A stretch of 36,450 nt of DNA from Bacteroidaceae bacterium (lineage in GTDB: Bacteria > Bacteroidota > Bacteroidia > Bacteroidales > Bacteroidaceae): contig JAFYNL010000064.1 in assembly GCA_017548075.1 (NCBI GenBank), forward strand, positions 1 through 36,450, written 5' to 3'. This document shows, piece after piece, positions 34,199 through 36,450 of this stretch. The notes beneath the pieces were generated by a model. It saw only the letters and a list, made by a program, of their open reading frames with translations. It was not told the DNA's origin and searched no databases. The number at the start of each line of letters is the position of its first letter. Within the stretch, counting starts at the first letter, position 1. The translations under genes were made by a program, and so were the position numbers.

Positions 34199-34284
34199 GT
34201 CATGCTTGTTATTGCAAAATTATGAAAAGTTGAGAGCATGACAAAATTAAATACCTGTTTTTTTTCATCTGCCCTCAACTTTTC
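34199..34284. promoter_or_regulatory. LRR promoter embedded in nested inverted repeats
   Basis: On the minus strand TTTG (34245-34242), 19 bases, TAATTTTG (34222-34215) forms a full Bacteroidota promoter, with transcription starting near 34208. GTCATGCT (34199-34206) and AGCATGAC (34235-34242) are perfect 8-bp arms flanking the -7 element. A second perfect 11-bp pair, GAAAAGTTGAG (34224-34234) and CTCAACTTTTC (34274-34284), overlaps it. The layout suggests an operator. No cognate regulator can be named. Confidence 0.55.
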
Positions 34285-34299
34285 TACCATCAGACCAAC

Positions 34300-34938
34300 T
34301 TAATCTTCATCAAAAAACTTCCCTGCGAGTGTTTCTATGTTTTTACTTAACCGAAACATAAAATTCTCGCGGCATCTACGCTCTTTTTTGAACATATTGA
34401 TTGTTCCCGCAGCATCTTCTTTAAATTTCATATGATTATCAATGTTGAAAGAATTCGCCATGGTTTTCACATCTAGGTTGTCTGTGCCGATGAGAGTGAA
34501 GGTCCAATTCTGCTTCTTCAACTTCTCAATAAGGTTTTGAACCATTTTTAATGTCCATTCATTAGAGCTATTTTCTTCTCCGTCGGTAATTATTGTAACC
34601 AGAACATGGTCGCCTTCGTTTATTTGGGAATTAACCTTTGACACCCCTTTTCCTATAGCATCATAAAGAGGAGTGCAGCCTCCTGGATTGTAATCCCCCC
34701 ATTTGAGATCATTTGTTTGGGATGCCAGAGCATTGTCGTAGTGCCATGAAGTATGATCTGAATCAAAAGTGAGAAGTGTCACTCGCTGCTCTTGGTCTGG
34801 GTACATTTCTTGCATTTTTCGTATTGTCTGCAGCGTCTCATTCATGCCTGTGAATGCTTGTTCGCGGATGATGGACATCGAACCGCTTTCGTCGACTATA
34901 ATAAGATTATAAACGACCTTGGATTTGTTTTCATTCAT
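34300..34938 (-). CDS. Cytoplasmic von Willebrand factor A domain protein
   Basis: 212 residues, no signal peptide or membrane segment. The metal-ion-dependent adhesion site is complete: DESGS at 16-20 (DxSxS), the Thr in GGCTPLYDAIG, and the Asp in ITDGEEN. The protein resembles the small vWA proteins (TerY-like) that occur in phage and tellurite-resistance-type clusters. The C-terminal 50 residues are basic (FKKERRCRENFMF). vWA proteins bind partners in a metal-dependent way. It is divergent from the sigma/A1S_2505 fusion and reads toward the LRR gene. Confidence 0.88.
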   Translation of the reverse strand: MNENKSKVVYNLIIVDESGSMSIIREQAFTGMNETLQTIRKMQEMYPDQEQRVTLLTFDSDHTSWHYDNALASQTNDLKWGDYNPGGCTPLYDAIGKGVSKVNSQINEGDHVLVTIITDGEENSSNEWTLKMVQNLIEKLKKQNWTFTLIGTDNLDVKTMANSFNIDNHMKFKEDAAGTINMFKKERRCRENFMFRLSKNIETLAGKFFDED

Positions 34939-35063
34939 AACTGTTTGTTTTTTAAGTGTTAGTACATTTTTTCGACATGTCTTTATTACTTTGAAGAAGA
35001 ATTTCAGGAAAAATTAAATCAGAAACCATTTTTTTTTATAATTTAGCACCCAAATAATACAAT

Positions 35064-36119
35064 ATGGCTCTTCAAAAATTAACAGACGATGAGATAATCG
35101 CAGGGTTTCGCAAAGGCGATTCTAGCATTATTAAAGAATATTTTTACGGTTATTGTAGAGTTGGTTACATGGTCTTTAACCAAAGATACCAGCTAAGCGA
35201 AAAGGAAAATCTGGACTTTATGTCATTGGCACACCAGTATGCACTCTATTTAATGGAGCATGACTGGAAACCATTGGAGGATCATTCTCCTAATGTAAGT
35301 CTAAGAACTTGGCTTATTAACGGATTTCGATTTATAGTCTTGGATGCACTTAAATGGTACAAAAAAGAATATGGCAGCATTACATTTGAAGACTATCTTT
35401 GTTCATTTGATTTGAAAAGTAACCTTCGCTTGCAATTCAATCGAATGATAGAGGATTTGTGCGAGAACATGCCTATGACTAGAGATGATAGATTCATCAT
35501 TGAAATGATAATCTTAAAAGGATATCAAGGCAAGGAGGTAGCAGATTTAATGGGGCAAACACCGGCATCTTTATCATTAAAATATAAACGAATAAAAAAA
35601 GATATAATATATCCATATTTTCGTGAAAACTTCGATATGGAATTAGATATGGAAATACATAAGGAAGAAGTATCAGGTGCGATAATCAGGAAGTCGACTA
35701 TCACTGAAGGAAGTGTTGATAATTACAGTGCAACGAGGTACAGGGAAGTACCAAGACGTTCCACACCAGAAAATATCACAGAACTTAGTCAAAACGAGAT
35801 ATTTGTTTTTGGAAGCAACCTCAAAGGACTTCATAGCGGAGGAGCTGCATACACAGCCTACCGCAAGTTCGGAGCCATTATGGGACAAGGAATTGGGTTG
35901 CAAGGTCAAAGTTATGCAATTCCAACAATGCAGGGCGGCGTAGAAACTATACGTCCATATGTTGATGAGTTTATACAGTTTGCTAAGGAGCACCCAAACT
36001 TGACTTTCCTTGTTACTCGTATTGGCTGCGGCATAGCAGGTTTCAGGGATGGAGATATCTCTCCTTTGTTTAAAAAGGCACATGATATTGAGAATGTTGT
36101 GTTGCCCCAAGGTTGGTAA
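35064..36119 (+). CDS. Sigma-70-like domain fused to an A1S_2505 (macrodomain-like) module
   Basis: 351 residues. Residues 5-105 resemble sigma-70 region 2 (LTDDEIIAGFRKGDSSIIKE; LRTWLINGFRFIVLDALKWY) and 140-182 region 4 (DRFIIEMIILKGYQGKEVAD; PASLSLKYKRIKKD). An acidic linker (190-237) leads to residues 238-351, which match the A1S_2505 phage non-structural family (IFVFGSNLKGLHSGGAA, GQGIGLQGQSYAIPT, VTRIGCGIAGF, DISPLF); its GSN and G-rich loop recall the ADP-ribose site of macrodomains. A single continuous frame shows no frameshift at the junction. No signal or membrane segment. A sigma factor whose activity is set by a nucleotide or ADP-ribose ligand is a hypothesis only. Confidence 0.82.
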   Translation: MALQKLTDDEIIAGFRKGDSSIIKEYFYGYCRVGYMVFNQRYQLSEKENLDFMSLAHQYALYLMEHDWKPLEDHSPNVSLRTWLINGFRFIVLDALKWYKKEYGSITFEDYLCSFDLKSNLRLQFNRMIEDLCENMPMTRDDRFIIEMIILKGYQGKEVADLMGQTPASLSLKYKRIKKDIIYPYFRENFDMELDMEIHKEEVSGAIIRKSTITEGSVDNYSATRYREVPRRSTPENITELSQNEIFVFGSNLKGLHSGGAAYTAYRKFGAIMGQGIGLQGQSYAIPTMQGGVETIRPYVDEFIQFAKEHPNLTFLVTRIGCGIAGFRDGDISPLFKKAHDIENVVLPQGW

Positions 36120-36314
36120 GAAGGCAATTATCCTAGAGTTATAAAAACACTCATCACTCGTCACCTGTGCTACCTAAATCGCTGAATCACAGCGAAATAC
36201 ATAGGTGATGAGTTGGTGATGAGTTAAAAACTTCTCGTCACCTCTATTATGGGCTAATAATCAATTGGTTAGAGGCAAGAAGTGATGAGTGACGAGTGTT
36301 TACCCAAATATTCT
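36120..36314. other. Gene-free region with a long imperfect inverted repeat
   Basis: Two arms of about 21 bases (36145-36165 and 36282-36302) pair with one mismatch and one G-T wobble, about 115 bases apart. Each arm is itself a 7-base tandem repeat (CACTCAT, CACTCGT on the left; GTGATGA, GTGACGA on the right). Between them are two 11-base copies of GTGATGAGTTR at 36205-36226. Convergent gene ends flank it, so termination is one possible role. Confidence 0.6.
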
Positions 36315-36450
36315 TTATTCTGCCTCTTCTGGATTCTCTGGCAGCAGATGGTCTTTGGCTTTTGACTTGGATATGATTGTGCGTCCGAGTTTGTTTTCCA
36401 GCTGGTTGCGAGCTGCTTTTGCCACGCTTCCACCTTCTTTAGCTACTCTG
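36315..36450 (-). CDS. DinD-like protein, C-terminal end (partial)
   Basis: The minus strand is open from the window edge to TAA at 36317-36315, coding for 44 residues (RVAKEGGSVAKAARNQLENK followed by LGRTIISKSKAKDHLLPENP and EEAE). The pattern AK.GG..A..AR..LE...G..V.SK.NAK is what I know from the C-terminus of DNA-damage-inducible protein D. The rest lies outside the window, so the BRO-type or other N-terminal domain cannot be checked. Confidence 0.6.
   Translation of the reverse strand, partial: RVAKEGGSVAKAARNQLENKLGRTIISKSKAKDHLLPENPEEAE

Follow-up and report, generated by a model that had tools for sequence, protein, structure and literature searches.

A protein in which an ECF-like sigma factor is followed by an A1S_2505-family domain of predicted macrodomain fold is encoded by a single gene in the DNA that we analysed, a stretch of 36,450 nucleotides from a Bacteroidaceae bacterium (hereafter the window), and the same fusion occurs in at least 84 distinct loci. 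The protein may be an ECF-type sigma factor that responds to NAD or ADP-ribose, has its own signal-binding domain and a vWA partner, and drives its own cassette. We hold the chances for this reading to be about even; the ligand, the gating, the role of the vWA protein and the promoter are what we infer. A gene switch worked by an NAD-derived signal is suggested because the sigma–macro fusion stands near-constantly beside the same partner and sometimes beside enzymes of NAD or ADP-ribose chemistry. The features of the locus are collected in Table 1.

Table 1. Features of the fusion locus (positions in the window)
Feature	Position	Strand	Remarks
Divergent vWA gene	34300..34938	-	212 aa; metal-site motifs present; Pfam VWA E 7e-9
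Conserved intergenic element, candidate promoter or operator	34982..35018	+	score 47.8 of 59.3 in the window
Sigma–A1S_2505 fusion gene	35064..36119	+	351 aa; single intact open frame of 351 codons
Sigma region 2-like part	35073..35375	+	residues about 4-104
Sigma region 4-like part	35412..35639	+	residues about 117-192
Linker	35643..35750	+	residues 194-229; predicted disordered, pLDDT <50
Macrodomain-fold A1S_2505 domain (predicted)	35751..36116	+	residues 230-351; Met289 aligned with the DarG/TARG1 catalytic lysine

The original prediction read this frame as sigma-70 regions 2 and 4 joined to an A1S_2505 domain, and proposed to check it by profile searches and by looking for the same fusion elsewhere. 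Both parts of the prediction are borne out. Residues 246-351 match the NCBIfam model A1S_2505_Nterm (NF049995) with 148.2 bits against a curated cut-off of 45. The sigma part of the window protein has diverged, its matches to TIGR02937 (E 1.6e-4) and Pfam Sigma70_r4_2 (E 0.064) both lying below the curated cut-offs, but sigma-70 similarity is clear in the relatives. With matches counted up to E 0.1, all 40 aligned sigma parts of relatives match TIGR02937 (best E 1.6e-10) and Sigma70_r4_2 (best E 2.4e-7), and 28 of the 40 match the Pfam ECF model. The predicted structure of the window sigma part has the folds of regions 2 and 4, without region 3 or 1.1. PDB sequences that match the sigma-part profile are mainly HTH proteins (MarR types at E 0.016; RpoE at 0.13; FliA at 0.18). 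Judged by the predicted structure, the N-terminal part is an ECF-like sigma factor with putative sigma activity; it is so assigned because of the predicted folds and the NCBIfam and Pfam matches in relatives, the sequence links to the PDB being to HTH proteins only.

An assembly join of two genes, or a chance reading frame, is ruled out by the number of distinct loci with the fusion and by purifying selection on both domains. A contig scan confirmed 162 relatives. The best 80 of these, which were retained, all have both parts, some of them cut by contig ends; the count given above is made up of these 80, the window and three further loci, found in other genomes. Nearly all hosts are rumen or gut Prevotella-type genomes, among them the named isolates P. 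ruminicola KHT3 (L030) and X. brevis ATCC 19188 (L071), and one locus (L081) is labelled Paludibacteraceae. Among 61 near genomes, some match is present in 24 and the full fusion in 7, the window's own included. The median dN/dS is 0.121 for the sigma part, 0.268 for the linker, the highest of the three, and 0.069 for the macro domain; the sigma and macro domains are both under purifying selection. Of 164 A1S domains placed in a tree, the 76 that are fused to sigma all fall in one set of 82 rows, together with six stand-alone ones. The fusion may have had one origin, on a tree that needs six changes and has few columns.

The fusion is also carried by the complete plasmid pE2-28 of Prevotella sp. 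E2-28, as an intact gene of 371 aa (L212:8001-9116). The public record of this plasmid annotates only a 124-aa protein that starts at an internal Met and leaves the sigma part unannotated, which may be the reason why the fusion escaped notice. Two IMG/VR contigs (L281 and L282) carry the whole fusion. Their phage nature rests mainly on the collection label; in a PHROGs scan of nine of their flanking proteins two had a match, in one case to an endolysin and in the other to an entry of unknown function. An internal Met just before the A1S domain is present in 74 of the 80 distinct fusions and absent from the window gene; an internal translation start there might also give a free A1S domain.

The C-terminal domain had been proposed to have an ADP-ribose- or nucleotide-binding type of fold, and structure prediction agrees: the solved folds closest to residues 230-351 are those of TARG1 and DarG. 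Profile-profile comparison of the A1S domain with DarG gives an E of 0.001 and a probability of only 21%. When five Bacteroidales DarG domains are aligned at this low probability, the N252-x-x-G-x-x-x-x-G-x-A and GxG (321-327) loops coincide and M289 falls on the DarG lysine. The Pfam Macro model (PF01661) leaves the window domain unmatched and matches two of 48 members (best E 0.056), and among PDB sequences no macrodomain matches the A1S profile. The domain is assigned as a macrodomain because of its predicted fold, searches by sequence only being weak or empty; we call it macro-like by fold and do not file it as a member of Pfam Macro. A search of the window's genome, which is 88% complete, found no canonical Macro domain (PF01661); order-wide it is present in 80 of 149 genomes.

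The catalytic lysines of the two closest folds are K80 in DarG and K84 in TARG1, and in the available portions of the sources their loss is inactivating (PMC5179494, PMC8501950). The fusions lack the lysine that follows the PT motif in hydrolases of the DarG/TARG1 type: the position is Met in all 80 distinct fusions that reach this point. Met is found there also in most Bacteroidales members of the A1S set compared, and one phage protein, the gp14-like protein of LIT1, has PTK, i.e. Lys. Because the catalytic lysine aligns with Met throughout the fusions, a reader or sensor appears more likely than an eraser of the TARG1 type, and other catalysis would be possible.

The divergent vWA gene was predicted to form a system with the fusion, as was a neighbouring LRR gene; tabulating the neighbours in relatives upholds the former and not the latter. 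The vWA gene is the divergent neighbour of the fusion in 72 of the 79 distinct loci that have 400 or more bases of upstream sequence. Of the seven exceptions, the vWA gene overlaps an over-long frame in L077, lies on the same strand 41 bases upstream in L088, is on the other side in L035 and stands about 8 kb away beside the intergenic element (L280) in L039; none was found in L029, L042 and L047. All three vWA metal-site motifs are present in 71 of 75 vWA genes. Since vWA is fused directly to A1S_2505 without a sigma part elsewhere in the order, the vWA–A1S link appears older or wider than the sigma fusion. Besides the fusion and the vWA gene, no cluster of neighbours occurs in more than ten loci. 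The LRR gene is not among the recurrent ones and was rejected as a part of the system, with clustering that required 60% length overlap and that a very variable LRR could escape. PADLOC models gave no family for either the fusion or the vWA protein at E <= 0.01.

Genes of ADP-ribose and NAD chemistry form a second, less constant context, which strengthens the proposed link: a minority of the fusions have them nearby, and elsewhere the A1S domain is fused to them or has them as neighbours. NF049995 is present in 67 of 393 genomes of the order. In a set of 82 A1S genes from 81 stretches, 55 stand alone, and the fusion types comprise vWA (7), ADP-ribosylglycohydrolase (4), NUDIX (1), microbial PARG (1) and DUF1810 beside DarT (1; Pfam names). 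A vWA, NUDIX, ADP-ribosylglycohydrolase, PARG, DarT or DUF1810 domain is fused or at most four genes away in 25 of the 82, vWA being counted; the other 57 have no such neighbour or fusion. The PARG fusion (L153:2584-3972) has a domain of the microbial type (E 9.4e-32). The A1S_2505–DUF1810 fusion (L103:2486-6575), from a Prevotella relative, is near DarT-type and DUF6939 genes, and this set is possibly a toxin-antitoxin variant.

As for the sigma fusion, an ADP-ribosylglycohydrolase, SIR2 and/or NUDIX gene is in the flanks of 13 of 80 loci, and none of the three was found in the flanks of the remaining 67. Such genes are also near the fusion on the Prevotella plasmid and on the two virus-collection contigs. 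ADP_ribosyl_GH is near the fusion in eight of 82 loci searched; the window gene has none beside it. In L098, the fusion is followed by ADP_ribosyl_GH, SIR2 and NUDIX in this order with gaps of a few bases, and in L282 ADP_ribosyl_GH, SIR2, NUDIX, vWA and the fusion are side by side (names confirmed by Pfam), a gene set that L281 has without SIR2. Another locus (L249:7894-10397) has a WYL-domain gene and a defence-type AAA ATPase gene between the vWA and ADP-ribosylglycohydrolase genes, upstream of the fusion.

Proximity was also counted in 12 fusion-bearing genomes, whose loci are related, so that the numbers are not independent: of 20 NUDIX matches (E <= 1e-10), six are of the close type (at least 81% identity to the query) and four of these six lie no more than 10 kb from the fusion; among 15 SIR2 matches, both close ones (89 and 91%) are near it; and of 13 ADP_ribosyl_GH matches, three are within about 15 kb. 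The window's genome has the fusion in its two-gene form. It has no close NUDIX gene; its only sirtuin, a distant one, and its one ADP_ribosyl_GH, which is in a gene of 1086 aa, are both on contigs other than that of the fusion.

Between the vWA gene and the fusion, 73 loci have in common an element, TTTATCTCTTTRAAGA-N11-AAAAATTAAG, which contains a short palindrome and in most loci is 57-60 bases from the fusion start. Over its first 24 bases the best match agrees at 15-24 positions, compared with 12-16 for shuffled sequences, and a pattern search matched the window element with one mismatch. Within the loci (3.87 million positions, both strands) no second copy was found except in L026 and L082, the latter being a match in an overlapping register. 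The L026 site, upstream of a stand-alone A1S gene and ADP_ribosyl_GH, was considered as a second target and rejected, as that gene is a shortened duplicate in which part of the linker and promoter of the fusion survives. This sigma-deleted duplicate (L026:962-1382), with its promoter kept, overlaps the start of the ADP-ribosylglycohydrolase gene. The element has no match in the A1S loci without sigma (L102-L211). In the 12 genomes, allowing up to two mismatches, there are 28 sites, namely 12 at fusion loci, one at the shortened copy in L026 and 15 others; the reversed pattern gives 14, and there is no excess that would indicate a wider regulon. In the window's genome a two-mismatch match (L265; G000:C20:13265-13293) lies upstream of a 383-aa gene, at the control frequency, and is possibly due to chance.

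The spacing of the two blocks of the element would suit an ECF promoter. The element may instead be an operator, and an ordinary promoter may lie downstream of it at TAnnTTTG, which we take to be the canonical Bacteroidetes promoter box and which is present in the last 60 bases before the fusion start in 39 of the 73 loci. A promoter consensus scan of positions 34200-36450 was uninformative (8 sites, against 7.1 in shuffles). Directly 3' of the fusion gene, an apparent inverted repeat, cactcatcactcgtcacct ... agtgatgagtgacgagtg, was seen by eye at 36140-36310; it is possibly a small mobile element.

If the protein is an NAD/ADP-ribose-responsive sigma factor, it could work as follows. The macro domain, with its loops kept and the catalytic lysine absent, would bind an NAD-derived ligand. 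This could be ADP-ribose, either free or attached to a protein, or the O-acetyl-ADP-ribose that a sirtuin makes. As a peptide-binding partner, the vWA protein would hold or present the sigma factor in the manner of an anti-sigma-like clamp or of a chaperone. A rise of the ligand would free the sigma part to bind core RNA polymerase and to transcribe from the conserved intergenic element. Expression of its own gene would go up, probably together with that of the vWA gene; in some strains the ADP-ribosylglycohydrolase, sirtuin and NUDIX genes that lie downstream would be raised as well. Those enzymes would remove the mark and the ligand, and the switch would be reset. Its likely use is in the response to ADP-ribosylation or NAD stress, and the system is possibly of phage origin. 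A bolder version, which we regard as tentative, has the sigma factor gated directly by ADP-ribose or O-acetyl-ADP-ribose. This would be the first link in one protein between NAD or ADP-ribosylation and promoter choice, and a mobile, self-regulating alarm of rumen Bacteroidales that switches on de-ADP-ribosylating enzymes when a phage or toxin ADP-ribosylates host proteins.

Gating by a free ligand is dispensable if the macro domain docks the sigma factor onto proteins that bear ADP-ribose, such as an RNA polymerase that a phage enzyme has modified or a vWA protein with this mark, and transcription is redirected only in cells that have the mark. The binding loops retained in a fold without the catalytic lysine, the long flexible linker, and the presence of neighbours that act on protein marks (ADP_ribosyl_GH and SIR2) would all fit such a tether, as would the prediction, in the available portion of PMC9503650, of ADP_ribosyl_GH systems with vWA chaperones directed against viral ADP-ribosylation. 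However, the Pfam-scanned neighbours of the fusion include no ADP-ribosyltransferase except the sirtuin, with a putative activity, and no marked target is known, and we consider docking unlikely. The conservation of the macro domain, stronger than that of the sigma part, could also reflect an enzyme, a hydrolase or deacylase acting by another mechanism, whose production the fusion couples to transcription of the operon without gating. That the A1S domain so often stands alone, and that an internal Met might release it from most fusions, agree with this, but the uniform loss of the lysine and the lasting fusion to a sigma factor, which suggests regulation, make it rather improbable. It is very unlikely that the sigma-like part no longer starts transcription and is a DNA-binding or adaptor module, its region 4 acting as a plain HTH in repression or activation of the divergent promoter, as both sigma folds are predicted and the ECF sigma profile is matched by 40 of 40 relatives, although the PDB matches to HTH proteins, the palindromic element between two divergent genes and the lack of a regulon found beyond the cassette in the 12 genomes would be in its favor.

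Should the preferred reading of a ligand-responsive sigma factor hold, a sigma factor carrying a macro fold would lead in a single step from NAD-derived signals to gene expression, and a dominant rumen genus would offer a sensor of ADP-ribosylation stress that can be tested. It would also give A1S_2505 a readable function; the name of this family says no more than that it is a phage non-structural protein. The size of the family, named isolates included, allows its immediate study.

Control of a sigma factor usually lies with a separate anti-sigma protein, and ECF sigma factors with C-terminal extensions exist, those of the ECF41/ECF42 type and others. The fusion resembles the latter in joining, in one polypeptide, a compact sigma factor of regions 2 and 4 to an extra C-terminal domain that is likely regulatory. 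It differs in that the extension is an A1S_2505-family macro fold, and no such extension was found in the literature searched. Nor was any fusion of a sigma factor to a macrodomain or to ADP-ribosylation functions found described, in agreement with the original prediction, in a search that reached few subscription papers, so that a description elsewhere is possible. The domain is like TARG1 and DarG in its fold and, in an alignment of 21% probability, in its N-x-x-G-x-x-x-x-G-x-A and GxG loops, and unlike them in having Met for the catalytic lysine and, in the window, no Pfam Macro match. It is a clear member of the A1S_2505/phage N4 gp14-like family (NF049995), which tblastn finds in 452 phage records. 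Unlike the fusions, LIT1 has the PTK lysine, and none of the phage matches is known here as sigma-fused; the whole fusion is on the two IMG/VR contigs.

The closest network is that of the ADP-ribosylglycohydrolase-centred host systems predicted by Iyer, Burroughs, Anantharaman and Aravind 2022 (PMC9503650). As in the part of that account available, ADP_ribosyl_GH, Nudix, vWA chaperone and macro components recur together here, and the vWA partner is present in 72 of 79 fusion loci. Unlike in those systems, most fusion loci are without the three enzymes, the window's among them. In the accessible text the signal is sensed by a Nudix or WYL repressor and sigma factors are not mentioned; at the fusion loci it is the sigma factor that carries the macro domain. 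In a way not found described, the fusion joins a known type of switch, a sigma factor with a C-terminal domain, to a known signalling network.
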